Below, one piece after another: positions 34,735 through 60,892 of a DNA stretch of 64,000 nt. Location of the stretch: the NCBI GenBank assembly GCA_028284155.1, contig JANQSF010000006.1, positions 114,491 through 178,490 of the forward strand. Direction: 5' to 3'. Both the position numbers and the translations under genes were made by a program. Below the pieces are notes generated by a model. It was not told the DNA's origin, did no database searches, and worked only from the letters and a program-made list of their open reading frames with translations. Numbering within the stretch: the first letter of the stretch is position 1; each line of letters begins with the position of its first letter. Source of the DNA: Phycisphaeraceae bacterium (GTDB lineage Bacteria > Planctomycetota > Phycisphaerae > Phycisphaerales > Phycisphaeraceae).

Positions 34735-34743
34735 TCAATCGTC

Positions 34744-35946: not shown

Positions 35947-36112
35947 GTCATGGAAACCGGATTTCGAGCCCTCTCCGCCCTTTTGGGGGCCTGGAGACGG
36001 GCTTTAACTTTGTTTGAAACCCCCACCTGCCCTGGTGGGTATGCAAACTCAGACGCCCGCCGCGAACCTGCGCGGTCGGTACACCCTTAACGACTCGAAG
36101 GAGTATCGAGAC

Positions 36113-36594: not shown

Positions 36595-37290
36595 ATGACA
36601 GGTGAGTCGCCGACCCAATCCGAGTCGGTCAGGGGCCGTAGTGCGGGGCCGTGTCGATCTCAGACGCGTGAGGCATCGCCGCGCCCCAATCGTGCCGCGA
36701 CCGCCTTTACGCTGATCGAGGTCCTGCTGGCGATCGCCGTGTTGTCCGTCTTGGTCGCTGTTCTGGCCATCGCCTCGAGCACCGGCCCGGATTCGATCAA
36801 ATTCGACGAAGGCGTGCTGCGATTCGAAACCATGTTGCACGTCATGCGGGCCGAGGCCGCCAACAAGGGCCGGCGCTTCCGCATCGCGTTCGACGAAGAC
36901 GACCAGTCCATCAAGATTGAATACGAGCCGCAGCCGCTGGCGCAGCCCGGCCAGTACATCACGTGGGAGGACACAAGTTGGACGGAACTTGTCCCGCGAG
37001 AGTCGCTGATGGTCGACCGCTGCGTGCTCACCGGCGACAGCGCGTATCGCACGCTCACGTTCGCCTCGGGTGACACCCGCGACGCCACCGGCGCTGAGGT
37101 CGAAACGGTGGTATTCGAGCCAGACGGCACCAGCGACTCGGCACGGATCGAGCTTCTCCCGACCGACCAGCGTGACAAACGCCGCGCATTGATCGAACTG
37201 GACGGCCGAACCGGTCTGTTCACCACCAGCGTCATGACACCCAGCGAATGGGACACCTACGAGCAGGAGCAGTCGGATCTCTCCCCGTGA
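36595..37290 (+). CDS. gspH: Minor pseudopilin GspH-like
   Basis: 231 residues. A prepilin-like motif AFTLIEVLL with Glu42 at +5 follows a 37-residue basic leader. The -1 residue is Ala37, not the usual Gly, which could slow or change processing. The globular part (about 65-225) is strand-rich with FRIAFDEDDQ and ALIELDGRTG, fitting the GspH fold. Position after gspG and before gspI supports the call. It starts 8 bp after the gspG stop. Confidence 0.82.
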   Translation: MTGESPTQSESVRGRSAGPCRSQTREASPRPNRAATAFTLIEVLLAIAVLSVLVAVLAIASSTGPDSIKFDEGVLRFETMLHVMRAEAANKGRRFRIAFDEDDQSIKIEYEPQPLAQPGQYITWEDTSWTELVPRESLMVDRCVLTGDSAYRTLTFASGDTRDATGAEVETVVFEPDGTSDSARIELLPTDQRDKRRALIELDGRTGLFTTSVMTPSEWDTYEQEQSDLSP

Positions 37291-37328: not shown

Positions 37329-37853
37329 ATGCAAGTCGTTGCCCCTAATCAACTTCGCCCGATCGCGCGTGGCCGCCGCCGCGGCGCGATCCTGCTCGAG
37401 GTCGTCGTGGGGCTGTCGCTCGTCGTGGTGGCGGCGGTGTTCATCCTCGACGGGTTGAACACCTCGCTGCGATCGACCCGCCGGGCGTCGCTGGAAGCCA
37501 CCGCCGCCGACCTGCAGGTGACAATCACGTCGTTTCTGCAAATGGGCGTCGTCGAAATGGTCAACGACGGCCCTCGTGCTTTCGAAGATCCGCTGCCGAT
37601 CGATCACGTCATCGACCCGAACTGGACATGGGAATTGGTCGTCAGCGAGTTGTCGACCGAGTCGGCCGTGCCGCCGGAGATGGCGCCCGACCTGCGGCAG
37701 GTGCAGGTCGTTATTCGGCATGAAGAAGAGGACTACGTCCTGCGTTCGACGCGGCTCATGCGCGTCCCGCCTTTGGAAGAAGAGGAAGAAGGTGCCGACG
37801 ACGACCTCGGTCTGCCGGACGGCTTGCCCGCCGGGGTGGGGGTGACGCCATGA
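37329..37853 (+). CDS. gspI: Minor pseudopilin GspI-like
   Basis: 174 residues. The motif RRRG19|A20ILLEVVVGLSL has Gly at -1 and Glu24 at +5. The following helix and a short globular part match GspI in size. The C terminus is a Glu/Asp-rich tail with Gly/Pro. Its TGA overlaps the ATG of gspJ by four bases, indicating translational coupling. Gene order (G-H-I-J) supports the name. Confidence 0.8.
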   Translation: MQVVAPNQLRPIARGRRRGAILLEVVVGLSLVVVAAVFILDGLNTSLRSTRRASLEATAADLQVTITSFLQMGVVEMVNDGPRAFEDPLPIDHVIDPNWTWELVVSELSTESAVPPEMAPDLRQVQVVIRHEEEDYVLRSTRLMRVPPLEEEEEGADDDLGLPDGLPAGVGVTP

Positions 37854-38587
37854 CGATGCACAGACCACGCATCGCGCATGCGCGACGCGCTTTCACACTG
37901 ACCGAGGTCGTGCTGAGCATCGGCCTGGCGCTTGGGCTGATGGGCACGTTGCTGTGGTTCTATCAACACGCGGCCGACACGCGCGACACCATCGGCCAGG
38001 ACCTCGACCGTTTGCAACAACGCAGGCTGGTCATGGACCGCGTCACCGAGCAACTGCGCGGCGCGATGTCGCATCGGTTTCTCAACATCGGCCTCGAAGG
38101 CCAGACCGACCGTGTGACGTTCATCGCCGCCCGCCTGCCCGGCAACGCCGCGTGGGCGGTGCGCGACGGGACGGACGACTTTGTCCCGCCCGAGCAGGAC
38201 GTGGTGTTGACCTCGTTCGCGTTGCGCATCGAAGAAGACGAGGACGGCTACGGCGTGATCCGCGGCGTCGAGATGCAAACGCAGAAACTGATCGCGACCG
38301 AAACCGCGGAAGAAGGTGAAGGCATCGAGTCGGCGCTGTTGTCGTCTGACTTCCTGTTCGTCCGCTTCCGCTACTGGGACGACGAAGGACAGGCCTGGCT
38401 GGATACGTGGGAAGAGGGCGGCATCCCCAAGGCGATCGAGGTCGCCTTCGGTTATGAGCCGCTGGAAGAAGACGCCGAGCCGATCGACTACCCGCATGAA
38501 CTGGTCAGCCGGGTGATCTACCTGCCCGGCGCGGCCGAACCTCAGGACGGGCTGGAAGAATTGCTTCGTTCACTGGGCGCGCCCTGA
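37850..38587 (+). CDS. gspJ: Minor pseudopilin GspJ-like
   Basis: 245 residues. A14|F15[10 protein letters not shown] is the prepilin motif, with Glu19 at +5 but Ala at -1, like gspH. The helix is followed by a strand-rich domain with [11 protein letters not shown] and [12 protein letters not shown], as in GspJ. The C terminus is acidic. It overlaps gspI by 4 bp (ATGA). Confidence 0.82.
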
Positions 38588-38649: not shown

Positions 38650-40113
38650 ATGAACACGCCGCACGACAACACGACGAGCACGAGCCGGCACGAACGGCGT
38701 GCGCTGTCGATTCGCCCGCGCGGCGTTGTGCTGTTGGCCGTGTTGATCGTGATCACGATGTCGGCGATGGTCGCGGCCAGCCTGCTGTTCCGTATGCGGG
38801 CTGAGACGGCCACGTCCGCCGCCACGCTTTCCGGTGACCAGGCCCACGACGCGGCGATGAGCGGCATTGACACGGTCATCGCCATGCTCACCGCCCCGCC
38901 GCTCGAAGGCGCGCTGCCGCCGCTTAGCGACACGTCGCTCTGGCTGGACAACCCCGACATGCTCAAGAACCAGCTCGTCGTCGACGACGGCGCCAACCGC
39001 TGGTACTTCACGATCTACGCACCCAGTTCGGTCGACCCGGACAGCCCGCGATTCGGCGTCATCGACGAGACCGGCAAGGTCAATATCAACATCGCGCCCG
39101 ACGAAGTCTTGCTGAGCCTGCCGGGCATGACGCCTGAACTGCTCGACACGCTGCGCGACTACCTGGACAACAACGATGAGACGCGGCCCGACGGCGCGGA
39201 GCAAGACTACTACGACCAACTGCCCACCCCCTACCTCATCCGCAACGGCCCGCTGACGACGCTCGAAGAGTTGCTGCTCGTTAAAGGCTTCAATGCGTCG
39301 ATTCTTTATGGAGAAGACGCGAACTTCAACGGCCTGCTGGAACCGAACGAAGACGACGGCGACGAGAGTTTCCCGCCGGACGACAACGACGGCCAATTGA
39401 ATCGCGGCCTGCTCGGCGCGGCGACTGTTGATACCACCGGTCCCGACACCGACGCAGAGGGCAATCAGCGCATCAACCTGAACGGCCGAAACAGCAACCT
39501 GCGCGACACCGGCCTTTCCGACGCGACAATTTCGTTCATCGAAAGTGTCCGGGCGGACGGCGTGCAGTTCACGCACCCCAGCCAACTGCTGGGTATGACA
39601 CACCGCGTCCAGCGAAACGACCGACGATCGGGGCTGACGCAGGGGCAGACGCTTCGTTCACCCGTCGACGCCACCGACTTGCCGATCGTCATGGACAAAC
39701 TGACGACCAACCCCGGCGGTCGACGCGTGCCGATCTTCGGCCTGCTCAATGTAAATACCGCGTCGGTCGCCGCGCTGGCGGCGCTGCCGCAGATCGATGC
39801 GACGCTGGCACAGCAGATCGCCGAGACGCGTGTCACGCTCGACCCGCAACAACTGACTTCGACGGCCTGGCTGTACACAGAGGGGTTGCTTGACGAAGAA
39901 GCGTATAAGGCAGTCGCCCCACTGCTCACGCCACGCGGCTATCAGTTCCGCATCCGATCCATCGGGTTCGGCGTGCCCAGCGGGCGGTTCCGTATCATGG
40001 AAGTGATCGTTGACTTTGCGCAGGACCCGCCACGCATTGTTTACCAACGTGACCTGACCCGGCTCGGCCTGCCATTTCCACTCGACGCTGAACAGGAGGA
40101 ACTCGGGACGTAA
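38650..40113 (+). CDS. gspK: Minor pseudopilin GspK
   Basis: 487 residues. The motif RPRG25|V26VLLAVLIVIT has Gly at -1 but Ala30 at +5 where other pilins have Glu, as is typical of GspK, which caps the pseudopilus tip. The large insertion domain (about 100-330) includes NINIAPDEVLLSLPGM, a helix-hairpin-helix-like stretch seen in GspK, and an Asp/Asn-rich loop (SFPPDDNDG) that may bind calcium. It begins 62 bp after gspJ. Confidence 0.88.
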   Translation: MNTPHDNTTSTSRHERRALSIRPRGVVLLAVLIVITMSAMVAASLLFRMRAETATSAATLSGDQAHDAAMSGIDTVIAMLTAPPLEGALPPLSDTSLWLDNPDMLKNQLVVDDGANRWYFTIYAPSSVDPDSPRFGVIDETGKVNINIAPDEVLLSLPGMTPELLDTLRDYLDNNDETRPDGAEQDYYDQLPTPYLIRNGPLTTLEELLLVKGFNASILYGEDANFNGLLEPNEDDGDESFPPDDNDGQLNRGLLGAATVDTTGPDTDAEGNQRINLNGRNSNLRDTGLSDATISFIESVRADGVQFTHPSQLLGMTHRVQRNDRRSGLTQGQTLRSPVDATDLPIVMDKLTTNPGGRRVPIFGLLNVNTASVAALAALPQIDATLAQQIAETRVTLDPQQLTSTAWLYTEGLLDEEAYKAVAPLLTPRGYQFRIRSIGFGVPSGRFRIMEVIVDFAQDPPRIVYQRDLTRLGLPFPLDAEQEELGT

Positions 40114-40156: not shown

Positions 40157-42007
40157 ATGCCCTTTGGTCTTTTTGAATCCCGATCCCGTTCGGCCGCGCC
40201 GCCGAGTCGATTCGTCGCTCTTGATATCGACGGCGGCGTGTTGCGTGTCGTCGACGCCGAGCCGCGTGGCGACAAACCGAGGTGCCGCAAGCTCGCGACT
40301 GTCCCACTGCCCGTCGACCTCGACCGCGAGAACGCGTCCGAAGTCGGGCGGGCCATTGGCGACGCACTCCGCCAGTTGAAGCTCGACGACCTCAAGGCCG
40401 TCATGGACGTCCCGCGCGGCAAGGCCGTGCTCAAGACGCTCACGCTCCCAACTGCCGACGCAAGCGAACTGCCCGGCATGGTCCGGTTCCAGGTCGAAAG
40501 CGACCTGCCGTTTGCCATCGACGAAGCGGTGATTGACTTCACGCTCGAGTCGCCGCCCGAAAGCGAGCCGTCCGCAAACGGCACGCAACCCGTGCTTGTC
40601 GCCGTGGTCAAGCAGGACGTCGTGTCGTGGTACGAGCAGGTCGCCGCGGAAGCGAAGATCAAACTCCACGCCATCGGCCTGCGGCCGTACGCCGACGTCT
40701 GCTGCCTCCAGGCATGCGTAACACCCGAGCAGTGGCAACAGACACTTGCCTTGGTTCACCTGCACCAGACCGAAGCCGAGATCAACGTCGTCACACGTGG
40801 CGTCATGACGTTCAGCCGATCGGCCACCGTGCCGCGCGGCAACGGCACGGCCATCGACGCGCTGGCGGTCGAGGTCATCCGAACAATCCAGAGCGCCACC
40901 GCCGCGCAGGGCAGTTCGAAGGTCGATCGCGTTTTCATCGCCGGTGACACGGGCAACGAAACCAAGGTCGTTGACACGCTCGCGCAGAGGTTGAGCCTGC
41001 CCTGTGAAGTACTCGACCCGACGGCTGCGCTCAAGCTCAAGAAGTCCAAAGCCGACCCGCGCGGCCTGGTCACGCCGCTGGGCCTGGCGATCGGGCACGG
41101 CGTTGAAGGCCGCGTCCCCTTCGACCTGTTGAACCCGAAGCGGCCGCCTGTCGAACGCGACCTGCGCAAGCTGCGCATGATCGGCGGCGGCGTGGCGGCG
41201 GCGCTCCTCATGCTCGTCCTGTTCACGATCGGCATCACGCGCAAGAACGCCGAGGAAACCCGATTAGCCGAGTTGCGCGGTCGGCACACGAAACTGACTA
41301 ACGATCTCAAGCCCGTTACTCGCTTGAAGAAGCGTTTGGCCGAGATCGAGCAGTGGCAGAAAGAAAGCCGCGCCTGGCTCGACCACTGGGCGAATGTCAC
41401 CGCCTTGTTCCCTGGGCCGAAAGACGCGTACGTCACCAGCCTGAAAGGGACGGCTGCGGGCACGATTCAGATCTCGTTGCGGGCCAAGTCGCAGACCGTC
41501 ATCAACGACCTGGCCGACCGGCTGCGCAAGGCGGGCTACTCGGTCAAGCCTCACAACAAACAACCGGCAGTCGACCAGTATGGCTACACGCAAGACACCA
41601 TGCTGACGTTGACACCGACCGACAACGTCAAGATCGACGTCAAGTCCTTGCGCGCCGAACCGCGTCCGAGCGACGACGGCTCGAAAACAATGATCAGCCA
41701 GCGCCGCTCAAGCTATTCGTCGCGCACGTCGAGCTATCGGCCTTCAACATCGTCTTCGTCGCGCAGTGACGACTCCCGGTCGTCCGCGAACAACGAACGT
41801 TCGTCGTCTTCAACGCAGGGCAGTTCCGAGCGCGGCTCGTCGAACTCACGGACGGACGAACGCTCGTCTTCGAGCAGTCGATCAAGTGATGAGCGATCGT
41901 CATCGTCGTCGCGCGAGAGAAGTTCATCAAGCGGCCGCGACGACGACCGTTCTTCGTCGTCGCGCAGCCGGTCGTCCCGTGACTCCAAAGGAGGTCGTTC
42001 ACGCTGA
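40157..42007 (+). CDS. gspL: GspL/PilM-like assembly protein with Ser/Arg-rich C-terminal tail
   Basis: 616 residues. Residues of about 18-330 form an actin-like PilM/GspL cytoplasmic domain (VALDIDGGVLRVVDAE; DLPFAIDEAV). A membrane helix lies at about 341-362 (GGGVAAALLMLVLF). A periplasmic coiled coil and a PilN/GspL ferredoxin-like domain follow (about 375-500). From about residue 514 to the end the sequence is a low-complexity tail of Ser, Arg and Asp, with many SSSSR steps. The tail has no counterpart in standard GspL. The stop overlaps gspM's ATG (TGATG). It would link GspE to the periplasmic part of the machine. Confidence 0.82.
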   Translation: MPFGLFESRSRSAAPPSRFVALDIDGGVLRVVDAEPRGDKPRCRKLATVPLPVDLDRENASEVGRAIGDALRQLKLDDLKAVMDVPRGKAVLKTLTLPTADASELPGMVRFQVESDLPFAIDEAVIDFTLESPPESEPSANGTQPVLVAVVKQDVVSWYEQVAAEAKIKLHAIGLRPYADVCCLQACVTPEQWQQTLALVHLHQTEAEINVVTRGVMTFSRSATVPRGNGTAIDALAVEVIRTIQSATAAQGSSKVDRVFIAGDTGNETKVVDTLAQRLSLPCEVLDPTAALKLKKSKADPRGLVTPLGLAIGHGVEGRVPFDLLNPKRPPVERDLRKLRMIGGGVAAALLMLVLFTIGITRKNAEETRLAELRGRHTKLTNDLKPVTRLKKRLAEIEQWQKESRAWLDHWANVTALFPGPKDAYVTSLKGTAAGTIQISLRAKSQTVINDLADRLRKAGYSVKPHNKQPAVDQYGYTQDTMLTLTPTDNVKIDVKSLRAEPRPSDDGSKTMISQRRSSYSSRTSSYRPSTSSSSRSDDSRSSANNERSSSSTQGSSERGSSNSRTDERSSSSSRSSDERSSSSSRERSSSSGRDDDRSSSSRSRSSRDSKGGRSR

Positions 42008-43248
42008 TGTCCGCACGCGAACGCATCCTCGCTTATGTCACGCTGGGCATGATTGTGCTCGGCCTGCTGTACCTCGGCGTGTTCAAGCTGATCATTCAGC
42101 CGACCAAAGAGGCGAACAAGCAGGCACAGCAGATGGCGCTCGACGTGGCTGAACTGGAAAACCAGGTCAACCTCGAACCGGAGTACCGCCTGCGTCTTCG
42201 TGACGTCACGAAGAAATCCTTCGGCACGAACAAAGATGTCGCGCTGCAAGCGGTCAGCGCGCACCTGACCGAGATCTTCAAGCAAGCCCGCCTCGGCCAA
42301 CCGAAGCTGAGCGCCGTCAACTCGGCGCGTCGCGTGGGCACGGCGCTACAAGTGGGTTGGCACGCCAGCGTGCGGGCGTCGCTCGACGAAGTGACGAACC
42401 TGCTCTATTTGCTTCAAAATGACCCGCACATCCATCGCATTGACGAAGCGACCTGGCTGCCCCTTCCAAATAGCAACGACGTCGAGTTCAAAGTGCGCGT
42501 GATGACGCTCGTGCTCGACCCCAAGACGCTGGGCGGCAAGATCGAGGTCGATCCGAAAGCACTGAAACTTGAAGCACGCCTCGCGGACGCGCAGCGCAAA
42601 GCGTACGACCTGATTGACGACCGCGACGTCTTCCGCCCGTACATCAAGAAACCGCCGCCGCCCCGGCCGACACCTCCCCCGCGGCGCAACGACCCGCCGC
42701 CGCAACGTAATGACCCACGCCCACCGCCGCCCCGCCCGGCCCCGATCAAATTGGTCGGCCTGCCCACGTGGCAGGGCAAACCGACGGCCGTCGTGCGGAA
42801 TACGGAGTCCGGTGAAACAACGCGCTACGAGTTAGGCGCCGACCTGCTGGGCGGCGAGATCGTCGCGATCGACTACCGGCCGATGGCGCACCCGTCTAAT
42901 CCACTGTTGCAGTCGTTCAGCCGTGTGATCGTCCGTACGCGCACGTCGTTTTATGCGGTTGAGGTCGGCCAGTATCTCAGCGAGAAGCGCCGCCTGCGCA
43001 CCGATCAGTTGCCGCTCGATGTGCGCGAGGCGTTCGTGCCCAAGCCGAATCCGAAACCGGTCGTGACGCCGACAACGTCACCCGGCGACAGCAAGCCGGA
43101 CACTGACAACAAACCCATCGTCGAACCGGACACGAAGCCGGTCGCCGTGCCGGATGACAACCCCACGCCTGCGGGCGACAACGCCATCTCGGGCCAACCT
43201 GATACCGAAGACGAATCCTCATCGAAGGAGACGCGCGATGAGCCGTGA
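42007..43248 (+). CDS. gspM: GspM/PilO-like protein with Pro-rich linker and GspC/PilP-like C-terminal region
   Basis: 413 residues. A membrane helix (about 8-30) is followed by a coiled coil and a PilO/GspM ferredoxin-like domain (to about 205). A Pro/Arg/Asn linker covers about 214-247 (PPPPRPTPPPRRNDPPP). Residues of about 248-335 (LVGLPTWQGKPTAVVRNTES; YELGADLLGGEIVAIDYR) resemble the homology region of GspC or PilP, which contacts the secretin N0 domain. A Pro/Asp-rich tail ends the protein. No separate gspC is present, so this protein may combine both roles. Its last codons overlap the gspD start by 11 bp. Confidence 0.7.
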   Translation: MSARERILAYVTLGMIVLGLLYLGVFKLIIQPTKEANKQAQQMALDVAELENQVNLEPEYRLRLRDVTKKSFGTNKDVALQAVSAHLTEIFKQARLGQPKLSAVNSARRVGTALQVGWHASVRASLDEVTNLLYLLQNDPHIHRIDEATWLPLPNSNDVEFKVRVMTLVLDPKTLGGKIEVDPKALKLEARLADAQRKAYDLIDDRDVFRPYIKKPPPPRPTPPPRRNDPPPQRNDPRPPPPRPAPIKLVGLPTWQGKPTAVVRNTESGETTRYELGADLLGGEIVAIDYRPMAHPSNPLLQSFSRVIVRTRTSFYAVEVGQYLSEKRRLRTDQLPLDVREAFVPKPNPKPVVTPTTSPGDSKPDTDNKPIVEPDTKPVAVPDDNPTPAGDNAISGQPDTEDESSSKETRDEP

Positions 43249-46200
43249 TTGTTTTGTGTCGTATGTACTGATGTTCGTGTTGAGCTTGTCCCCGCTTTCG
43301 AGCGGCGCGTTGGCGCAGGATGCGCCCGACACCGCGGCGCCCGCCGCGCAGGCCGATGCCGACGCCGCCGAGGCGAAGGCCGCTGACAACCCGGCCGACG
43401 CCGCCAAGGCGGACGGCACGGACGCACCGGCTAACACGACCGACGCCGCGCCGGCCACCGCGCAGGCCGATGTCGACGCCGCCGACGCGAAGGCCGCTGA
43501 CAACCCGGCCGACGCGCCTAAGGCGGACGGCGCGGACGCCCCGGCCAAAACGACCGTCGCAGCGCCCAGGCCCAAGCCCGACCCGAAGCGGAACATCCGC
43601 TTTCAGTACGACGGCATCCCGTTCAACGACGTGATCAAGCAGTTCGCGCAGTCGGCCGGCAAGCCGATCCTGGGCGAGTTCGATGTCGAAGGCGAACTGA
43701 CCTTCTTTGACGCCGAGCCGTACACGCTTGAAGAGGCCAAGGACACGCTGAACATCATGCTCGCGACGCGCGGGTTCATGATCGTGGAAGACGGCCGATT
43801 CATCCGCGTGGTCGCCCTGGTCGAGACGGCGCTGCTGCCGGTCAAGATCCTTGACGGGCTGGACAAACTGGAAGAACAGCGCCCCAGCGCCATCGTCACC
43901 GTCGTGCTGCCGGTCGAACACATCGACGTCGAGTCGACGGCCAAGGCGCTGGTGCCGATGGTCACGATTGTGGGCAAGATCGCGCCACTGACGCGCGGCA
44001 AGGCGATTCTGCTGACCGACCGGGCCGGCAACGTCAAGCGCATCCGATCGCTGCTGGCGTTGATGGACCGCGACCCGGACGACCAGAAGAAGATGGAGAT
44101 GAAGTCGTATCACATCAAGCTGGCGTCGGCCGACGCGGTGGCTTCGGTGATCAACTCCGTCGTACGCGGGACGAGTTCACGCTCGTCTTCGTCGTCGTCG
44201 TCACGTTCGTCGTCACCCAGTTCGAGCTCAACCATCATCGCCATGGCCGACCAGCGGACCAACTCGGTCGTCGTGCGCGGCACGGCCGACATGATTGAGT
44301 TGGCCGACCAGGTCGTGCAGATGCTGGACGACCCGAAAGCGACCGGCGGCGAGACGATGAAGGCGTTTGCGCTCAAGACGGCTGAGGCCGACGACGTCGA
44401 GGACGCGATCCAGGTGATGTTCGGCGGGTCGCGTTCATCGTCGTCCAGCAGTTCGCGCACGTCGTCTTCGCGACGAGTCTTTGTGTACGGCGACACGTCG
44501 ATGAACTCCGTCCTGGTTCGCGCCAACGCGGCCGACATGGTCAAGATCGAGGAGCTCATCCAGAAGCTGGACGGCGCTGTCACGAACTTCAACAACGTGC
44601 AAGCGTTCACGCTCAAGCACGTCACGGCCGAGGCAATCGGCACCGTGTTGCAAGGCGTGCTCTCACCGCGCGCCGCCAGCAGCCGCGGGACGCCGGCCAA
44701 ACTCGTGGCCGTCACCGTCGACAAGAACACGAATACGATCTACGTCTCCGGCCCGCCGCACATGCTCGAGAAGGCGGCGCAGATCATCAAAGAGATCGAT
44801 CAGGACAAGATCACCGCCAACCGCGAGATCCATATCGTCGCGCTCGAGGACGCCGACGCGCCGACGCTGGCCAATTCGCTCACGCAGATGTACAAGCAGC
44901 AACTCGGCGAGTCGCCCACCCCGGGCGCCATGCCGGTCATCCAAGGCATCGCGTCGAGCAACAGCCTGTTGATCTCTTCGTCCGCTGAACAGTGGGTCGC
45001 GCTTCAGAAGCTGATCGATCAGGTCAAGGAAGCGACGGTGCCGACGGACGTGCCGATCACGCGGATCATCCCGCTCAAGCACGCCCGTGCGACCGAGTTG
45101 GCTGTGACACTGCGTACCGTCTACGAAGCCAAGGGCGAAACGAAAGCCAAGGTTGTGACGCCCTCGCAACAGCAGTCTTCGTCTTCGTCACGCAAGGTCC
45201 CGCAGGCGCAACCAATCGCCGACCGCGGCAAGCCGTCGATCACGATCGCGGCGGCCGAACACAACAACAGTCTCGTCATCGTTGCGATTGAGAAAGACCA
45301 GAAGACGATCGCCGACGCCGTCGCCACGCTCGACGTGCCCGCCGATGCGGCGATCGACCCGATCCAGCTTGTCGAGTTGAAGTCAGCCAACGCCGAGTCC
45401 CTGGCCAAGACGCTCATGTCGATGGTGCCGAAGCCGGAGCGCGGCCAGTCGCAGGAGGTCTTCATCGAGGCCGACCCGTCGACGAACGCCGTGCTGATCC
45501 GCGCGCCCGAGTCGCAGCGGAAGATGATCGAGGAGATGATTGCGAAGCTCGATAAGAAGACGCAGGGCGCGGCCCGCGAGCTGCGCATGATCGAGGTGAA
45601 GCACGTGTCCGCCACGGGGCTCGTGCCGATGTTGCAACAGCTATTCGGCAACCAAACGCAAGGCCGCCCAAACCTGACCGGCGACGACGCGCGGTACTAC
45701 TGGTATTACATGGCCCGCTACCGCGCGGAGGCGGGCATTCAGGAAGACGAGCAACAGGCGATCGACCCCACCGCCAAGGTCGTCATCGCCGCCGCGCCGG
45801 GCGACCGCATGATCGTCGTGGACGCCCCGAGACCGATCGTCGAACAGATCGAGCGCATGATCAAGACGCTCGACCGCGAAGACGGCCCGGCCCAGCAGCA
45901 GGTCCGCACCTACACGCTCACGCGGTCAAACGCCGCCGAGTTGGCGCAGTCGCTGGCCCGCTTGTTCTCCAAGGACACGCGTGGTCAACCGCAAACACCC
46001 GGCGCGGAGGCGCCCGCGCGTTTCGAGGCCGACACGACCGCCAACCAACTGCTCGTCAGCGCGACGCCCGCGCAGTACGAAGCGATCGAAAAGGTGATCG
46101 AGGAAGTCGAAAAATCGACTGTCCAGGCGATGCAGACCAAGACCTTCCCGCTGCGCTTCGCCAATGCCGTCGATGTCGTGCCCGTGCTCGAGACGATGCT

Positions 46201-49200
46201 CGTCAGCGAGTTCGGCCAACGCACGCCGTCGATGCGCAGTTTCGGCTCTTACAGCGTCTACGCACCGCAATCGGCCAAGAAGACCGACGTGCGTGTCGCC
46301 GCCATGCCCGCGACGAATCACATCGTCGTGCAGGGCCCGCCGGATAAACTCGTCCTGGCCGAGGAGTTGATCAAGACGTTCGACACGAAGGAAGCCATAG
46401 CCGGCACGGTCGTGCAGGTCGTGTTCCTCAAGAATGCGCAGGCGCCGAGTCTGGCGTCGGCCGTGCAGGCCGTTCTCGCCGCCAAGGCGCAACGCCTGTC
46501 GGTCTCGCCGAACAGCCGGGCCTCGACGCAACCCACCGACGAGGTCGTCGTCACGCCCGAGCCGAACTCGAACAGCGTGCTCGTCCGCGGCTCCGCTGCG
46601 CAGGTCGAAGCAGCCGTGAAGATGATCGAACGCCTCGACCAGCAAAGCGACTCCGGCACGACGCAGATGCGCATCTTCAAGCTCAAAGAAGGCGACGCGG
46701 CCGCGCTGGCGACCAACCTGGACAAGCTGTTCGCCGACATCATTAAGCAACAAGGCTCGCGGGCCGACGGCCTGACGCCGCCGCCGTTCAGCGTCGGCGC
46801 GGACGACCGCACGAACAGCCTCGTCGTTTCCACGACGCCCGCCTACTTCCTGCTCGTCGAGCAGTTGCTCGAGCAGCTCGACAAAGCGCCGCAACGGGCC
46901 GACCGCAACGTGCAGTATTTCGTCTTGAAGAACGCCGACGCGTGGGACATGGCCGACCAGATCGAGGCGATGTACGAAGACCGCGAAGGCGACGAGAAGC
47001 CGGTCGTGCAGGCCGACCTGTTTTCCAACGCGCTGACCGTGGTTGCCAAGGACGCCGACCTCAAAACAATCGAAGAGATCGTCAGCAAGGTCGACGCCGC
47101 GGCCGAGGACAACTCGATCCAGGTGCGCGTCTTCCCGGCACGCAGCATGAAGGCGGCCAAACTTGCCCAGGCGCTCAAGAACCTCTACGAGCAGACGGCC
47201 GACACCGACGTGATCGTGACCGACCGCATCCCCCGACCGGGCGACGTGGTCATCCCCCTCGACCAGAAGAAACAGGGCGGCACGGATAAGCCCGGCGTGC
47301 AACCGGTCAAAGACGGGGCGAATGACAAGGTCCCGGGCGAGCGCGCGCAGGTCGGTGAAGAGGGCAAGGCCGGCCCGGCCGCGCAGGCCAACGCCCAGGC
47401 CGCGCCGAAGAAGAAGCCGCAGGTCATCATCGCCGTTGATGAGGCGACAAACTCGCTGATCATCTCGGGCACGGGCGACCAGCTCGACGAGATCGACATG
47501 CTCATGTTCAACCTGTCCGGCACGTCGACTACGCCGGAATACGACGTGCGAGTTTTCCCCGTCCGCCACACCGACCCGGCCGTGATCGTCCGCGTGATCA
47601 ACAGCCTGTTCAACCCCAACGCGGCGCGTCAGCAGCAACAGCAGAACAACAACCAGGCCCAGTTGATGCAGCAGCAGATGCTCAACCTGCAGCAGCAGAT
47701 GCTGAACCAGCAAGGCCGCGGCGAGCGCCCCGGCGGCGACGACTCGGCCGGCCAGGGTCGCGGCCAGCGCAACCAGCGGAATCAAGGTAACCAGGGCAAT
47801 CAACGCGGACAGCGCAACAACAACCAGCCGGCCGGACCGACCGTCAGCGCTGTGGCCGATACGCGTTCGAACAAGGTCATCGTGCGCGGCAAGCTGGCCG
47901 ACCTCGACCTGATCGGCGAGTTGATCCAACAACTCGACACGTCGACGCTCATCGCCTCGGAAGTCCGCGTCTTCACACTCCAGCACACCGACGCGACGCA
48001 GGTCGCCACCAACCTGCGCGAACTCGTCACCGGTCAGATCGGCGGCGGGCGGGCATCGAGTGTCAACTCGCAGCGGGCTGTGCTCATCAAGCAGCAGTTG
48101 GCCCAGCAGGTCGAGAACGCGGTCGACATGGCGACGGTCGTCAGCATCGCCGCCAACGCGCAGACCAACAGCGTCATCGTCGCCGCGCCCGGTGAGGCGA
48201 TGGGCGTCATCGCGCACATCGTCGAGGAGATCGACCAGTCGGCCGCGCTGGCGGCGACGCCCAGCGTCCGGCTCTACCCCGTCAAGCACGCGGACATGGC
48301 CACGATGGTCGCGAATCTCAACAGCATCTTTCAGCCGATGATCAGCGGCGCCGGTCAACGCAGTGGGCAAGGCCGGGTTGTCATCACCGGCGACGCGTCG
48401 TCCGGTGCGATCATCGTCTCGGCCTTCCCCGACCAGCACGAGATGATCGACCAGGTCATCAAGGAGATCGACAAGGCGCAGCCGGGCGAGGCACTGGTCA
48501 TCAAGGTCTACCCCATTGAAAACGCCGACGCCGCCAGCGTCGCGCAAACGCTGAGCCAGACACTCATCCCCGGCGGCCAGCCGACGCGCGTCAACCAGTC
48601 GACGCTGCGTTTTCTGCGTCAACCCGGCGGGCGCGGCGGCAACATCCCCGTTGCGCCAGGTACATCCGCCAACAGCGCGACGCAGGGCTACGCCCCGCTG
48701 CGCATCACGGCCGACCAGTCCAGCAACACGCTCGTCGTCCGCGCGACCGAGGAAGAACACGCCCGCATCGCCGAACTGCTGCAACAGATCGACATCGCGC
48801 CGGCCTCGACTCAGCCCGTCCAACTGATCGCGTTGCAACACGCTGACCCCGTCAATGTCGCTCAGGTGTTGAACCGCATCTACGTCGATCAGGACCAGTC
48901 GCAGCAAGGCCGATTCCTGCGCAACCTGCGACGCGGCGGTGGCAACTCGATCGTGATCGAGGGCGACCCCGACTCCCGCATGCTGATGGTGCGGGCCGAC
49001 GAGAAGACCTTCGCGAAGATCAAGGAGTTGGCGACGCAACTCGACGTCGCCAGCCCGGCCGGCCAATTGGCGCGCAAGCTGATCAAACTCAAGCACGCAC
49101 AGGCGTCGAGCGTCGCGCAAGCACTGACGCAGGCGTTCGCGCCCTCGACGACCGGCCGAACCGCAACAGCCATCCAGGCGATCGGCCGCCCCAACGGCGC

Positions 49201-52200
49201 GGGACGTACGGCACGGGCCGAGGACGAAAACGACCTCGTGACGGTTGTCGCCGAGCCGGTGTCGAACAGCATCATCGTCACCGCCAGCGAGGCGAATCAC
49301 ATCAAGGTCGCCGCGCTGATCGATCAGATCGACACGCAGGAACAGTCCGGCGTCGTGACGCAATTCCTCGTGCTCAAAAACGCCAGCGCCCCGGAGTTGT
49401 CCGTGGCCTTGTCCCGTGTGGCCGGCAACCTCTCGGCCTCGCCCGCGCAGTTCGTCCGTGGTCAGCGGGCCGGCAACACCGGAGTCAGCGCCACACAGAC
49501 CGTCGTCTCCGCCGACTCGGCCAGCAACGCGTTGATCTTCTCCGGCCCGTCGACCGACGTCGAACGCCTCAAGACGATGGCATCGCAACTGGACGTGACC
49601 GCGGCGGACGTCGAAACAGGCGCGTACATCATCCCAATCAAGAATGGCGACGCGACGCAGATGGCGCAGATCGTCCGCGACCTGTACCTGCAGACGATGC
49701 TGGGCGGCAAGTCGTTGGGTAACTCGACGCTGGCGGTTTCGGCCGAACCGATCTCCAACTCGCTGGTCGTGGTGTGCGACCAGAAGATGCTCATGCAATT
49801 GAAGTTCCTGACGGCCCAACTCGACTTCATCGCGCCCAAGCGCGGCGAGGTTCGGGTCGTGACGCTCAAGCACGCCGACCCGGTCGAGCTGCAGAAGGCG
49901 ATCCAGGAGATCTACGGCGGCGACGCCGTCATCGCCCAGCCTAACCAGGTGCAAGGCCAGGGCACGGCCCCTGCAAACAACGCCGGTCAGCCGCGTACCG
50001 CCCCGGCGGGCAACCGCCAAGGCGCGCAGCCGCGCCGCGGTGGGCAGCGGGGGTCGATCGGCACGCCGGGCACACTCGGCTCGGCCGCCGCCGCGGCCGG
50101 TGTCCTGCCCGCGCAGGTCGCGCCCGGCACGGGCAACCCGCAAGGACGCGTCAGCACAACTGTTCTTCCGCAACAGCGCTCGATCCTGATCACAGCCAAC
50201 GACGACGATTTTGCGGCGATCAAGAAACTCGCCGAGGCGATGGACGCCGCCGCCGCCGGCTCGGCACGGAAGACCAAAGTCGTCGTCCTCAAGAACACGT
50301 CGAACACGCGCATCGCCACGGCGTTGAATCAGATGTACGCCGCGGCCGCCCGCTCCAATGTTGACGACGACAAAGTCAGCGTCACCGCGCTGCAAGGGAC
50401 CGACGCGATCGTGATCGCGGCCGTGCAGTCCAAGCTGCCCGAGGTCGAGGAACTGGTCAAGCAACTCGACGCCAAAGAAGTCGCGCCGCAGCTTGAGTTC
50501 CGGATCTACACGCTCCAACACGTCACGCCGAGCAAGGTCGTGCCGATGGTCAAGCAGATGCTCGACCGCGCCCAGCAGGCGACCGGCGGCGACGCGATCG
50601 ACATCCAGGCCGATGACCGCACCAAGTCGATCATCGTGTCGGCCAAGGGCAACGTGTTTGACCAGGTCGGCAAGGTGATTGAAGTGCTCGACCGCGAGCC
50701 CGTGCACGCGGCGACCGAGGTCACCATTGTCCAACTGCAACGCGCTGACGCGACACGTCTCGCGGCCGTGTTGAACGAGACGCTCAAGCCCGCGGCCGAC
50801 GGCCAGGTGACGGCCGAGGCCCGCGCCCTGCAGGAACAGGTCAAGAAGCTGAGCATCAAGGACGAACTCGGCAGGTTGGTCACGCTCGACCTGACCAAGC
50901 CGATCCGCATCATCGCCGACCCGATCAACAACGACGATCAGGGCGCCAACGCATTGGTCGTTGCTTCGACGAAGGAAAACATCTCAGCGCTGAAGGCGTT
51001 GGTCGCGTTGATGGACCGCGTGCCGCTGGCCGAGGAATTGCGCGTCCGCATCGTCAAGCTCGACAACGCCGACGCGACGAGCGTGGCCCAGATGCTGACC
51101 CAGTTGTTCGCCGAGGGGCAAAAGCTGCTGGCCGGCCGTGTCGGATCGTCAACCGAAGGCAAGGCCGAGCCGCAAGACGCAACGGGCAAGGGTCTGGTCA
51201 ATCCGCTGAACGTCTCGGTCGATGTCCGCACGAATACGTTGGTCATGAGCGGCCGCAACGAGACGCTGCTTCTGGCCCAACAGGTCGTCGAGCAGGTCGA
51301 TCAGGAGACGCCGGTCGAGCTACGCGAGATCACGCTCGTGCAACTGAAAAATGCCGAAGCCACGTCGCTGGCGCCGACCTTGCAGACCATGCTTGACGCG
51401 CGCGTGACGCGGCAGGCGTCGCTGGGCATCCAGGACGCCGAGCGTTTCCGTGTGATCGTCGCGGCGGACGCCCGCAGTAATAGCCTGCTGGTCGGCGGCT
51501 CGCGTGACGGCATCAAACTCGTTGAAGACCTGGCTAAGAAAATGGACGATCAAGGTCCGGCGTTGGCGGGCCAGATCCAATTGTTTGCGCTCAAACACGC
51601 CAACTCCGGCACGATGAGCATCACGCTCCAGGCGCTGTTCGATCAGCGGTACGCCGCGGCGACCACGCCCGACGTGCAGCGACAGAAGCCGATCATCCTG
51701 CCCGACCTGCGCTCCAACGCCCTGCTCGTCGCGGCGAACGCCGACGACACGAACGTGCTCAAGGGCCTGCTCGAAAAGATGGACAAGGAACTGACCGACC
51801 CGGCCGTGTCGATCGAGGTCGTCTCGCTGAAGCACAACGACGCGGGCATCGTCGGCCCTTCCGTCCAACGTCTTTTCCAGGCGCGGCTCACAGCCAACAC
51901 CGTGCCGGGCACGACGCCCGCGCCGCAGGATCAGGTCAACATCGAGTACGACGCGCTGTCGAACGCGATCATTATCTCAGCCAGCAAAGAGAACCACACG
52001 CTGATCAAGCAATTGCTGACCAAGGTCGACATCGAGCCGCCGATCGAAACAAGCGTCGTGCGGATGTACCCGTTGCAGATCGCCGATGCGCAGCGAGTCG
52101 GCACGGTCTTGCAAAGCCTGCTTGAACAGGGCCTCTACAAGCCCGGCAGTGTGGTGGCGCAGGACAACGCGGTCGTTCAGGCCCGCGAGAAGATCGCCGT

Positions 52201-54916
52201 GGAGGTCGACACACGGACGAACGTGCTGATCGTCTCAGCCAGTAAAGAAAACTTCAACGTGATCGAGCAGATCATCAAGCAGCTCGATTCGAGTGAAGAT
52301 TACGGCGCGCTGGCGGACGTTCGCCTTTACGTCCTCAAGTTTGCCGACGCGACACGATTGGCCCCGACGTTGCAGCAGTTCTTTGACGCCAAGCGCGCAG
52401 CCGAGCAACAGACCGGCGGCGGCGCGGGCGAGCGGTCGTTGGCCGTGAGCGTCATCCCCGACGCGCGGACGAACACGCTGCTCGTGGCCGGCAGCCGCGA
52501 GCACTTCTCGAAGGTCGAGGCCATGGTCCGCGGGCTTGACCAGCAGCAGATCAAGCCGGCCAGCGAGTTCCGCATCTTCGTGCTCAAGCAGGCCACAGCC
52601 GCGGCGATTCAGCCGACCATCCAGCAACTGTTCGCCCAACGCGTCGCGCGCGGCGACACGACCGACCCGGTGACCGTCGTGGCCGACGCGCGGGCCAACG
52701 CGTTGGTCGTTGGCGCCAGCTACCAGGACATGCAGATGGTCGAGGGCCTCGTGCGGCAACTCGACATCGAGCCGAAGCGCGAGGGCTCGATGATGCACGT
52801 GTTCCCGCTTCGCAAGGCCGACGCCAACCAGGTCGCGACCACGCTGCGCAACCTGTACGCCAGCCAGGGTGGCGCGCGCACGGTCGCCGCGGGCACGGGG
52901 AACGCCGGCGGCGACGCGGGCGGTGTGACCATCAGCGTCGATGAACGAGTCAACGCACTGGTGGTGTCGGCGGGCAAGGCCGACCTGCTCCGCATCGGTG
53001 AGTTGATCAAGCAACTCGACACCGACACGGTCACGCACGTGACCGAGGTACGCGTGTTCACGCTCGAGTTCGCCGACGCGACGGCGATGTCCGAACTGTT
53101 GAACCAAACGCTGACCGCCCCGATGGCGACGCCGAACCCGAACGAGAGCCCGTCGCGACAAACCCTGTTGCAGGTCGTCAGCATCGACAAACAAAGTGGC
53201 GAGCAGATCGTCTCGCGGGCGTTGAAGGAAGGCGTGCTGATCACGCCCGATGTGCGGACCAATTCCGTTGTCGTGTCCGCGCCGCTGGACTACATGCCGC
53301 TGCTCGAACGCCTGATCCGCGAATTGGACCTGACCAGCCCGCGCGAGGCGCAGATCCGCGTGTTCACTCTGAAGAATGCCGACGCGCAACAGATGGCCGA
53401 CGTGCTGACCAGCCTCTTCCGCATGGAAGCGGCCGCCAATGCCGGCGAGGAGCGGGCGATCAAGTACACGCTCCGCCTACCCGACGGCAGCACGTCCGCC
53501 GCGACGGCGACGATCGGCACGGACCAGAAGTACGCGTTGACCGTGACGGTCGACCCGCGAACGAACAGCCTGCTGGTCGGCGGGACGCAGCACTACGTCG
53601 GCCTGTGCAGCGAGATGATCGAGACGCTCGACGCCAGCCCGGCGCAGGAACGCGTCACACGCGTCTACCGCCTGCGTCACGGCCAAGCCGTCGATATCGA
53701 GGCGTCGCTCGGGTCGTTCCTCGACCAGGAGCGGCAACGCTTGCAAGCGGCGCTTGGCAACGACCGGCTTGGCGCGGCGCAGCGGCTGCTCGAACGTGAG
53801 GTGTCGATCGTGGCCGAGCCCACATCGAACACCTTGCTCGTCTCTGCCAGCCCGCGCTACTTCCCGCAGATCGAGCAGATGGTCATCGAACTCGACGCGC
53901 CCAAGCCGCAGGTGCTCATCCAGGCCGTGTTGGCCGAGGTCACGCTCGACGACGGGCTGGACCTGGGCGTCGAGTGGCAGGTCAACAAGGAGGTGGGCAG
54001 CACAAACGTCGGCGTCGGGACGGACTTCGGCATCGAAGACGCCTTCAACGCGTTCGGCGGGATGGGCGTGGGTATCGCCGGCAGCGACTTCAGCATCTTC
54101 ATGCGCGCCTTGCAGACGCAGGGCAAGCTTGAGTTGATCTCGCGTCCGCAGATCCTGGCGTCGGACAACCAGCCCGCGTCGATCAACATCGGACAGCGCG
54201 TCCCGTTTGTGACCAACAGCCGGATCACCGAGGACGGCTCGACTGTCAACACCGTTCAGTACGAAAACGTCGGCATCATCCTCGACGTGACCGCACGCCT
54301 GACGGACGACGGCTTCGTGACCATGGATATCCACCCAGAAGTCAGCTCGATTTCGGATACTAGCGTGCAGATCAGCGAGGCCGTCAACGCCGTCGTGATC
54401 GACACGCGTTCAGCCGACACCCGTGTCACTGTCCAGGACGGTCAGACGGTCGTGATCGGCGGCCTGATCACGGCCAGCGACAGCTTCCGCGTCGCGAAGG
54501 TCCCGCTGTTGGGCGACATTCCCATCCTGGGCGAGGCGTTCAAGAGCACCAGCCGCGACCGCCAACGGCGCGAATTGCTCATCATCCTGACGCCGAAGGT
54601 CATCCGCACGGTCGAGCAGGCCGACGCGATCTCCCGTCGCCAGCGTGAGCGGCTTGAGAGCATGAAACAGAGCGGCGAAAACATGCGCGACAAGGGGCTG
54701 GACGACAAGTCGTTCACGCTTCCACTCAAGGACGTGTACCCCGCGCACAGCGTGCCCAACGGCCACGCCAAGCCCGAAGACGGCGATGACAAGCCGGCCA
54801 CGAGCAAGAACGGCAAGCCGCGTCAGGGGCCGACAGTCATCGAGATCGACGTTGGCAAGGCGCCCAAGTCGAGCAAGCCACCGCCGGACAAACCGACTGT
54901 GGAGGTCGAACAGTGA
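43238..54916 (+). CDS. gspD: Giant type II secretion secretin GspD with about 37 N1-type repeats
   Basis: 3,892 residues, about six times a usual GspD. A signal peptide (LSLSPLSSGALAQ) precedes an Ala/Asp-rich tandem repeat (about 37-112) and an N0-like domain (about 119-192, RNIRFQYDGIPFNDV). About 37 N1-like domains follow, averaging 92 residues, each with FxLKxADAxxLAxxL, a variable loop, DxRTNSLLVSA and a closing IxxLD. Loops hold Ser-, Gln/Asn- or Gly-rich inserts. The secretin core spans about 3557-3790: VPFVTNSRI, NVGIILDVTARL, DTRVTVQDGQTVVIGG and VPLLGDIPILG. A basic Pro-rich tail ends it. GAAGGAG (43224-43230) sets the ATG at 43238. The frame is open throughout; no frameshift is apparent. 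Confidence 0.93.
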   Translation: MSRDCFVSYVLMFVLSLSPLSSGALAQDAPDTAAPAAQADADAAEAKAADNPADAAKADGTDAPANTTDAAPATAQADVDAADAKAADNPADAPKADGADAPAKTTVAAPRPKPDPKRNIRFQYDGIPFNDVIKQFAQSAGKPILGEFDVEGELTFFDAEPYTLEEAKDTLNIMLATRGFMIVEDGRFIRVVALVETALLPVKILDGLDKLEEQRPSAIVTVVLPVEHIDVESTAKALVPMVTIVGKIAPLTRGKAILLTDRAGNVKRIRSLLALMDRDPDDQKKMEMKSYHIKLASADAVASVINSVVRGTSSRSSSSSSSRSSSPSSSSTIIAMADQRTNSVVVRGTADMIELADQVVQMLDDPKATGGETMKAFALKTAEADDVEDAIQVMFGGSRSSSSSSSRTSSSRRVFVYGDTSMNSVLVRANAADMVKIEELIQKLDGAVTNFNNVQAFTLKHVTAEAIGTVLQGVLSPRAASSRGTPAKLVAVTVDKNTNTIYVSGPPHMLEKAAQIIKEIDQDKITANREIHIVALEDADAPTLANSLTQMYKQQLGESPTPGAMPVIQGIASSNSLLISSSAEQWVALQKLIDQVKEATVPTDVPITRIIPLKHARATELAVTLRTVYEAKGETKAKVVTPSQQQSSSSSRKVPQAQPIADRGKPSITIAAAEHNNSLVIVAIEKDQKTIADAVATLDVPADAAIDPIQLVELKSANAESLAKTLMSMVPKPERGQSQEVFIEADPSTNAVLIRAPESQRKMIEEMIAKLDKKTQGAARELRMIEVKHVSATGLVPMLQQLFGNQTQGRPNLTGDDARYYWYYMARYRAEAGIQEDEQQAIDPTAKVVIAAAPGDRMIVVDAPRPIVEQIERMIKTLDREDGPAQQQVRTYTLTRSNAAELAQSLARLFSKDTRGQPQTPGAEAPARFEADTTANQLLVSATPAQYEAIEKVIEEVEKSTVQAMQTKTFPLRFANAVDVVPVLETMLVSEFGQRTPSMRSFGSYSVYAPQSAKKTDVRVAAMPATNHIVVQGPPDKLVLAEELIKTFDTKEAIAGTVVQVVFLKNAQAPSLASAVQAVLAAKAQRLSVSPNSRASTQPTDEVVVTPEPNSNSVLVRGSAAQVEAAVKMIERLDQQSDSGTTQMRIFKLKEGDAAALATNLDKLFADIIKQQGSRADGLTPPPFSVGADDRTNSLVVSTTPAYFLLVEQLLEQLDKAPQRADRNVQYFVLKNADAWDMADQIEAMYEDREGDEKPVVQADLFSNALTVVAKDADLKTIEEIVSKVDAAAEDNSIQVRVFPARSMKAAKLAQALKNLYEQTADTDVIVTDRIPRPGDVVIPLDQKKQGGTDKPGVQPVKDGANDKVPGERAQVGEEGKAGPAAQANAQAAPKKKPQVIIAVDEATNSLIISGTGDQLDEIDMLMFNLSGTSTTPEYDVRVFPVRHTDPAVIVRVINSLFNPNAARQQQQQNNNQAQLMQQQMLNLQQQMLNQQGRGERPGGDDSAGQGRGQRNQRNQGNQGNQRGQRNNNQPAGPTVSAVADTRSNKVIVRGKLADLDLIGELIQQLDTSTLIASEVRVFTLQHTDATQVATNLRELVTGQIGGGRASSVNSQRAVLIKQQLAQQVENAVDMATVVSIAANAQTNSVIVAAPGEAMGVIAHIVEEIDQSAALAATPSVRLYPVKHADMATMVANLNSIFQPMISGAGQRSGQGRVVITGDASSGAIIVSAFPDQHEMIDQVIKEIDKAQPGEALVIKVYPIENADAASVAQTLSQTLIPGGQPTRVNQSTLRFLRQPGGRGGNIPVAPGTSANSATQGYAPLRITADQSSNTLVVRATEEEHARIAELLQQIDIAPASTQPVQLIALQHADPVNVAQVLNRIYVDQDQSQQGRFLRNLRRGGGNSIVIEGDPDSRMLMVRADEKTFAKIKELATQLDVASPAGQLARKLIKLKHAQASSVAQALTQAFAPSTTGRTATAIQAIGRPNGAGRTARAEDENDLVTVVAEPVSNSIIVTASEANHIKVAALIDQIDTQEQSGVVTQFLVLKNASAPELSVALSRVAGNLSASPAQFVRGQRAGNTGVSATQTVVSADSASNALIFSGPSTDVERLKTMASQLDVTAADVETGAYIIPIKNGDATQMAQIVRDLYLQTMLGGKSLGNSTLAVSAEPISNSLVVVCDQKMLMQLKFLTAQLDFIAPKRGEVRVVTLKHADPVELQKAIQEIYGGDAVIAQPNQVQGQGTAPANNAGQPRTAPAGNRQGAQPRRGGQRGSIGTPGTLGSAAAAAGVLPAQVAPGTGNPQGRVSTTVLPQQRSILITANDDDFAAIKKLAEAMDAAAAGSARKTKVVVLKNTSNTRIATALNQMYAAAARSNVDDDKVSVTALQGTDAIVIAAVQSKLPEVEELVKQLDAKEVAPQLEFRIYTLQHVTPSKVVPMVKQMLDRAQQATGGDAIDIQADDRTKSIIVSAKGNVFDQVGKVIEVLDREPVHAATEVTIVQLQRADATRLAAVLNETLKPAADGQVTAEARALQEQVKKLSIKDELGRLVTLDLTKPIRIIADPINNDDQGANALVVASTKENISALKALVALMDRVPLAEELRVRIVKLDNADATSVAQMLTQLFAEGQKLLAGRVGSSTEGKAEPQDATGKGLVNPLNVSVDVRTNTLVMSGRNETLLLAQQVVEQVDQETPVELREITLVQLKNAEATSLAPTLQTMLDARVTRQASLGIQDAERFRVIVAADARSNSLLVGGSRDGIKLVEDLAKKMDDQGPALAGQIQLFALKHANSGTMSITLQALFDQRYAAATTPDVQRQKPIILPDLRSNALLVAANADDTNVLKGLLEKMDKELTDPAVSIEVVSLKHNDAGIVGPSVQRLFQARLTANTVPGTTPAPQDQVNIEYDALSNAIIISASKENHTLIKQLLTKVDIEPPIETSVVRMYPLQIADAQRVGTVLQSLLEQGLYKPGSVVAQDNAVVQAREKIAVEVDTRTNVLIVSASKENFNVIEQIIKQLDSSEDYGALADVRLYVLKFADATRLAPTLQQFFDAKRAAEQQTGGGAGERSLAVSVIPDARTNTLLVAGSREHFSKVEAMVRGLDQQQIKPASEFRIFVLKQATAAAIQPTIQQLFAQRVARGDTTDPVTVVADARANALVVGASYQDMQMVEGLVRQLDIEPKREGSMMHVFPLRKADANQVATTLRNLYASQGGARTVAAGTGNAGGDAGGVTISVDERVNALVVSAGKADLLRIGELIKQLDTDTVTHVTEVRVFTLEFADATAMSELLNQTLTAPMATPNPNESPSRQTLLQVVSIDKQSGEQIVSRALKEGVLITPDVRTNSVVVSAPLDYMPLLERLIRELDLTSPREAQIRVFTLKNADAQQMADVLTSLFRMEAAANAGEERAIKYTLRLPDGSTSAATATIGTDQKYALTVTVDPRTNSLLVGGTQHYVGLCSEMIETLDASPAQERVTRVYRLRHGQAVDIEASLGSFLDQERQRLQAALGNDRLGAAQRLLEREVSIVAEPTSNTLLVSASPRYFPQIEQMVIELDAPKPQVLIQAVLAEVTLDDGLDLGVEWQVNKEVGSTNVGVGTDFGIEDAFNAFGGMGVGIAGSDFSIFMRALQTQGKLELISRPQILASDNQPASINIGQRVPFVTNSRITEDGSTVNTVQYENVGIILDVTARLTDDGFVTMDIHPEVSSISDTSVQISEAVNAVVIDTRSADTRVTVQDGQTVVIGGLITASDSFRVAKVPLLGDIPILGEAFKSTSRDRQRRELLIILTPKVIRTVEQADAISRRQRERLESMKQSGENMRDKGLDDKSFTLPLKDVYPAHSVPNGHAKPEDGDDKPATSKNGKPRQGPTVIEIDVGKAPKSSKPPPDKPTVEVEQ
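43346..43573 (+). repeat. Tandem duplication of a 114-nt unit in gspD
   Basis: Two copies (43346-43459 and 43460-43573) differ at a few positions. Each encodes a 38-residue Ala/Asp/Lys-rich segment beginning AQAD. They lie between the signal peptide and the N0 domain. Confidence 0.85.
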
Positions 54917-57431: not shown

Positions 57432-57515
57432 TAACCAACCCGCCGCGCCACGGCGGTTTCGATAACAACCAACCTGAAGAAGCGGCCCCTTGTCGGCTCC
57501 GGTGGAACACTCAGT

Positions 57516-58583: not shown

Positions 58584-58634
58584 CCTCAATCAAGTTCAAC
58601 ACCCCGGGCCAATCGATTCACTCATTGCATTGCC

Positions 58635-60798: not shown

Positions 60799-60892
60799 GA
60801 GTTGTGCCTCACTCCATCTCTGAGATACGGACTCGCGACCGTGCCCGTATGATCAACGCGATCCTACGTCGCGTCATCAACGGAGCCGCCCC

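Follow-up and report, generated by a model that had tools for sequence, protein, structure and literature searches.

How far can a secretin reach? The question is raised by a 64,000-nucleotide stretch of DNA from a Phycisphaeraceae bacterium (contig JANQSF010000006.1, positions 114,491 to 178,490; here referred to as the window), which encodes a GspD-type secretin about five times the size of an ordinary one (giant GspD). How far a secretin extends across the periplasm is believed to depend in part on how many N rings it has, and the longest case found, as described in an excerpt of PMC5745081, has six rings.

Domain architecture of the giant GspD

The initial annotation, made from the sequence and its open reading frames, described a secretin frame running from 43238 to 54916 with an N0-like domain, a run of about 37 N1-type domains and a secretin core of the standard kind. 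This description was borne out by profile counting: position 43238 is that of Met29, the probable start, in a 3,920-codon frame, and the N0 domain, 37 N1-type domains and the core follow one another in that order (Table 1). The 37 domains are 36 repeats recognized by a purpose-built repeat profile plus a divergent N1 domain, which was recognized by a profile alignment to the N1 domain of 5wq7 and has the b-a-b-b-a order in the structure model. Pfam alone matches 35 Secretin_N stretches, so the profile search that the annotation had proposed as a check on the nature of the repeats came out in its favor. The N-terminal block matches GspD-type structures (profile E of 1e-37) and the C-terminal block matches 6hcg (2.4e-82 by profile comparison), while the core scores 171.8 bits against PF00263 and has a Foldseek match to 6i1x at 2.6e-27, as befits a double-barrel secretin core. 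The computed mass of the monomer is about 416 kDa, which amounts to 6.2 MDa for 15 copies. Structure models, for which 39 of the 77 usable C-terminal and 27 of the 53 usable N-terminal locus segments served as input, reached pTM values of only 0.46 and 0.40 and are not reliable for the packing of the repeats. The first two repeats (aa 340-440) have Ser-rich loops that look like the long Ser/Arg-rich tail at the C-terminal end of the PilM/GspL-like protein encoded upstream. A frame of 1,604 aa on the minus strand (45926-50740) lies antisense to the repeat array.

Like GspD, PulD and XcpQ (6hcg, 5wq7, 5zdh, 6i1x), the giant protein combines N0, N1-type domains and a core and is encoded in a T2SS operon; unlike them, it has 37 N1-type domains instead of three and 3,892 aa instead of about 620-750. 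Judged from its sequence, the giant gene is therefore a variant of the T2SS GspD and not a standard GspD. Its score against the GspD model TIGR02517 (1208 bits; cut-off, 351) is inflated by the repeats, as is that against the PilQ model TIGR02515 (385 bits; cut-off, 284), and it also passes the cut-off of the SctC model. PilQ is typically encoded in a pilus operon and carries an AMIN domain. No AMIN domain is found among the Pfam matches of the giant GspD, and the T2SSG, GspH and T2SSK families are encoded upstream, which argues against its assignment as a type IV pilus secretin PilQ.

Table 1. Coordinates of the T2SS genes, the domains of the giant GspD and the linked lipoprotein gene in the window
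Feature	Position	Strand	Basis or remark
GspE-type ATPase	33013..34734	+	PF00437, PF05157
GspF	34735..35946	+	PF00482
GspG major pseudopilin	36014..36586	+	PF08334
GspH	36595..37290	+	PF12019
Probable GspI	37329..37853	+	Pilin-like N-terminus by eye, without Pfam match
Probable GspJ	37850..38587	+	Pilin-like N-terminus by eye, without Pfam match
GspK	38650..40113	+	PF21687
PilM/GspL-like protein	40157..42007	+	PF11104
GspM-like protein	42007..43248	+	Weak T2SSM match, synteny
Giant gspD	43154..54916	+	Longest single open frame, 3,920 codons
Probable start (Met29) of giant gspD	43238	+	Product of 3,892 aa
Signal-peptide-like N-terminus	43238..43318	+	Read by eye from the translation
N0 domain	43625..43810	+	aa 158-219 of the 3,920-aa frame
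N1 domain, divergent	43880..44074	+	About aa 243-307, limits by eye
36 N1-type (Secretin_N) repeats	44099..53896	+	aa 316-3581, linkers of 8-11 aa
Secretin core	54107..54607	+	aa 3652-3818, PF00263
Putative lipoprotein, 192 aa	54913..55491	+	Overlaps giant gspD stop codon, lipobox-like start

Genomic context

The giant gspD closes a T2SS operon with the gene order E-F-G-H-I-J-K-L-M-D, in which the I and J assignments are probable, and the same operon context is found for its relatives. The GspM-like protein has an N-terminal hydrophobic stretch, a Pro-rich linker and a conserved C-terminal domain; its T2SSM match is weak (0.053 in the window; 6 of 20 relatives match, the best at 0.0062). A search with its extra conserved domain gave no known relative, and a possible resemblance of this domain to GspC gained no support. 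GspC itself (T2SSC, PF11356) has no match in the same genome, but this family was matched in only 2 of 14 control genomes. Downstream of the giant gspD, the lipoprotein gene is followed by those of MraW, a LysM protein, a transpeptidase and GcvT, with the cell-wall genes (MraW, LysM protein and transpeptidase) at 56427-62014.

Ordinary-length secretins and the origin of the array

Members of the same family, G014 and G023, have gspD genes of 742 and 743 aa whose products contain three N domains each by the same profile, in agreement with the number that the annotation had given for ordinary GspD, and linkers of 8 and 8 residues. These genes, as well as the gspD of G019 (741 aa, three N domains), occupy the same place in the operon, after the E, F, G, K and M-like genes, which identifies the giant as the same machine part with more rings. 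The difference is mainly 34 extra N domains, roughly a twelve-fold gain of ring domains. When 6 ordinary GspDs were compared with 109 giants, the commonest best match of the ordinary N3 domain was the last giant repeat (180 of 654 comparisons; 41 for the next position) and the ordinary N2 best fitted several inner repeats, which hints that the array may have grown between N1 and N3.

Ordinary-length secretins also coexist with the giants. Two proteins with a secretin core, of 701 and 698 aa, are encoded in the genome of the window, and neither reaches the cut-offs of the named secretin models. In the closed genome G034, the giant is accompanied by a further secretin gene (971 aa, four N domains detected) that has relatives of E, F, G and K within 20 kb. 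One frame in the genome of the window (C62, L108:5596-10134) runs for 1,513 aa from stop to stop, with the membrane and ATPase parts of an ABC transporter followed by a secretin core; it is either a fusion or two genes without an intervening stop.

Distribution of giant secretins

The initial annotation had called for a search for long GspD in other Phycisphaerae; such proteins were found, and they are conserved there. A whole-length protein search yielded 397 homologs at E <= 1e-3 among 1,812 scored candidates. The best 120 of these are 2,262-6,165 aa long and carry 23-62 repeats (median, 42), including some proteins cut at an end and 10 that do not look complete; over homologs and loci of named genomes together, the arrays comprise 20 to 62 repeats. 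Database proteins of the same family, including P0004, P0010 and P0047 (4,393-5,812 aa), go under source-given names, "type II secretion system protein D" or "secretin N-terminal domain-containing protein," and no studies of them were found in searches of open-access papers. The same searches, with most subscription journals and preprints outside their scope, turned up no title or listed abstract that describes giant secretins, so the annotation's remark that a secretin this large is not known to have been described holds provisionally.

Among the 41 genomes near the window (its own included), 14 have at least 31 Secretin_N matches. The occurrence is patchy in the family of the window, with 3 genomes out of 25, and more frequent in the rest of the order, with 11 out of 16. 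In 13 of these 14 genomes, the array lies in one uninterrupted frame of 3,109 aa or more, and in G040 it is split over frames. Single-contig genomes have intact giant frames of 3,776-4,856 aa, e.g., in G034 (4,634 aa), G245 (4,856 aa) and G322 (4,557 aa). In a sample of 393 genomes that was even over the phylum and limited to those with a completeness of 90% or more, the giant-specific block has matches in 32 at E <= 1e-30, a threshold that misses more divergent giants such as those of G025 and G034. Named genomes were also scanned and yielded 106 relatives, of which 80 were kept; all 80 loci encode arrays, and their titles name Planctomycetota (Phycisphaerae and others) and Verrucomicrobia, with a few apparent mislabels. 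The nearest named relative is a Phycisphaeraceae metagenome-assembled genome (MAG), which matches at 71% in the block. L048, L053, L064, L078, L083 and some other loci have titles such as Akkermansia muciniphila, Klebsiella pneumoniae or Proteobacteria but match at ~47-48% in the block and resemble the Verrucomicrobia-titled ones; these are probably mislabeled MAGs.

Secretin frames of intermediate length, ~1,200-1,550 aa, occur in other families of the phylum (G074, G150, G204, G277, G297 and others), as seen in a scan that scored 14 candidates per genome and gave match numbers, which are not repeat counts. G277 also has a 3,265-aa frame with N0N1 and 15 detected repeats, in which the core was not found. 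Arrays split over two or three frames in the MAG loci L028, L071 and L090, and the split array of G040:C1, reflect either sequencing errors or real decay.

Conservation of the repeats

Linkers between the repeats of the giant GspD are 8-11 residues long in all 35 gaps, and the median linker is 9 aa in each of the best 120 of the 397 homologs. Inserted sequence falls elsewhere: of the 48,142 inserted residues counted over 4,819 repeats of 110 proteins, 47,407 lie in one loop, from the first helix to the second strand, and thus within the domain rather than between domains. The repeats of the giant GspD are ~25% identical to each other. Comparison with its relatives gave a mean identity per relative of 0.40-0.60 at matched repeat positions, as opposed to 0.23-0.27 for other pairs; the repeat order is thus conserved, and these values indicate an old array in which each position has its own character. 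The least conserved positions are repeats 1-4 and 21 (mean identity, 0.30-0.32) and the most conserved are repeats 28 and 35 (0.62). In 6 close pairs of named relatives, which did not include the window gene, dN/dS was 0.075-0.134; the medians per repeat were 0.03-0.11, and no single repeat exceeded 0.64, as expected of repeats under purifying selection in these related genes.

Raw repeat numbers favored even values, which made up 69 of 87 regular arrays (18 odd) and 88 of a set of 120 (32 odd), and distinct indel events numbered 54 even and 33 odd, a preference that would have fitted the ring pairs of Thermus PilQ. The test covered 120 of 198 proteins, a pool of database and locus copies in which some are the same protein; 78 were left out because of gaps (44), a missing N0 (28) or a missing core (6). 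Correction for relatedness removed the excess, and array growth by pairs of repeats was rejected as unsupported: in a set of 104 proteins obtained by removal of near-duplicates, 32 of 51 independent pairs differ in repeat number, with the difference even in 16 and odd in the other 16, and 21 parity changes were observed versus 24.8 in shuffles. A repeat subtype with a period of 2 was not seen either (mean identity of 0.2715, 0.2727 and 0.2853 at lags of 1, 2 and 4, respectively).

A lipoprotein linked to the giant secretins

The putative lipoprotein encoded next to the giant gspD has relatives downstream and on the same strand in 74 of the 80 named giant loci, with aligned starts 51-978 bases past the array frame. 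The six loci counted as lacking it include two that break off within the gene (L025 and L034), one that stops 714 bases past the array frame (L024) and one in which the C-terminal part is shortened (L068); L049 and L088 are without it at the threshold used. It adjoins 9 of 11 giants in additional genomes (7 of 9 independently, since the G017 and G118 loci are the same DNA as L031 and L042) and is absent at G025 and G034, which belong to one genus. None of 12 stretches around ordinary-length secretin genes contained it, as judged with a profile that was built from giant-linked copies and may miss distant versions. The Gly-Cys pair at the lipobox position is invariant in all 15 members chosen for alignment, and a crude pattern finds a lipobox in 40 of 68 members, at least two of them doubtful (L054, L076). 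The protein has no Pfam match, and comparison with the PDB gave nothing significant (best E of 0.19, to an unrelated protein). This distribution suggests a partner specific to giant secretins; its gene lies next to the secretin gene, as do those of GspS/AspS/PulS-like pilotins, and the protein is perhaps pilotin-like. It could serve as a pilotin-like or stabilizing partner of the giant secretin.

Architecture and length of the channel

How these domains are arranged in the envelope can be approached by comparison with known secretins. Excerpts of the published structural work describe Thermus thermophilus PilQ as a 350-A-long secretin with six rings that spans most of a wide periplasm (PMC5745081) and f1 pIV as 220 A long with two N domains (PMC8563730). 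PilQ resembles the channel predicted for the giant GspD in having extra N rings, which stack across a wide periplasm according to the excerpt of PMC5745081; it differs in having six rings and 757 aa and in being a type IV pilus and DNA uptake secretin. The difference between PilQ and pIV corresponds to ~32 A per ring and would give the giant tube a length of ~140 nm. At 2.5 nm per ring, the tube would be ~110 nm long. Overall, a stacked tube would measure about 100-140 nm. We consider it probable that the giant GspD is a T2SS secretin whose 38 N-terminal domains (N0 and 37 N1-type domains) stack into a periplasmic channel of ~100 nm; such a tube is plausible and is favored in this analysis because of the linkers, which are like those of ordinary GspD, and the Thermus PilQ precedent.

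In such a channel, ~15 copies would assemble by the usual secretin route; the core would make up the gated outer-membrane pore, every N1-type domain would contribute a ring, and N0 would contact the inner-membrane part (the L- and M-like proteins). The pseudopilus would drive substrates along the tube, and the extra rings would let one T2SS bridge an enlarged periplasm, at least at some sites. An enlarged periplasm in planctomycetes is reported, in the passages of PMC5394234 on this subject, for Planctopirus and Gemmata and not for Phycisphaerae; the same passages describe sites in Planctopirus at which the inner membrane is kept near the wall. Because ordinary-length secretin genes coexist with the giants in the window's genome and in G034, the periplasm is unlikely to be uniformly wide, and the giant system may thus operate at certain sites or be bent.

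Several observations argue against the stacked tube. The number of repeats, 20 to 62, varies more than a fixed membrane distance suggests; the array is present in only 3 of the 25 genomes of the window's family; repeats 1-4 and 21 are weakly conserved; and the low-pTM models do not fix the packing. The variation in length, the low pTM, the lower conservation of repeats 1-4 than of the core-proximal ones and the presence of ordinary-length secretins in the same genome would also suit a tether, in which the core-proximal repeats form rings and the rest are strung out like beads, so that N0 can reach an inner membrane lying at a variable distance. This arrangement is unlikely, although it is the strongest competitor: a flexible tether would tolerate variable linkers, but the linkers stay at ~9 residues as in ordinary GspD, the inserted sequence is confined to a domain loop, and the order and sequence of the repeats are conserved.

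Conserved short linkers suggest a rigid stack, which makes it rather improbable that the rings form a stack that is not straight but bends, runs along the envelope or sits in an invagination of the inner membrane. Membrane invaginations are described for planctomycetes in the excerpted part of PMC5394234, and the closed genome G034, with both giant and ordinary-length T2SS-type secretin genes, would be in keeping with such a geometry. That the array is cleaved off and has a role of its own, such as that of a periplasmic scaffold, leaving behind an ordinary secretin, is very improbable: no observation was found in its favor, and N0, N1, the array and the core keep one chain and one order. Finally, the split arrays mentioned above would fit an assembly artefact, but a frameshift, collapse or false joining of repeats, the hazard flagged in the initial annotation, is practically ruled out and the array is genuine, because there are 397 homologs and intact frames in single-contig genomes, the repeats are too different from each other for a collapse, and the related genes are under purifying selection.

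Implications

Quite possibly, if tentatively, Planctomycetota and Verrucomicrobiota have a class of T2SS in which 20-62 stacked repeats and a dedicated lipoprotein make up trans-periplasmic tunnels of ~70-220 nm that export folded proteins. If so, giant secretins would be the longest single-protein secretion channels known, and the periplasm that folded proteins would cross on their way out would be a greatly enlarged one. With its 20-62 repeats, and its place in T2SS operons in records of two phyla, this family makes the reach of secretins testable, with the close relatives that have an ordinary GspD in the same operon position as a natural comparison. It likewise makes testable in what way a pseudopilus might operate over a distance of 100 nm and whether protein tubes bridge the enlarged periplasm of planctomycetes and their relatives.
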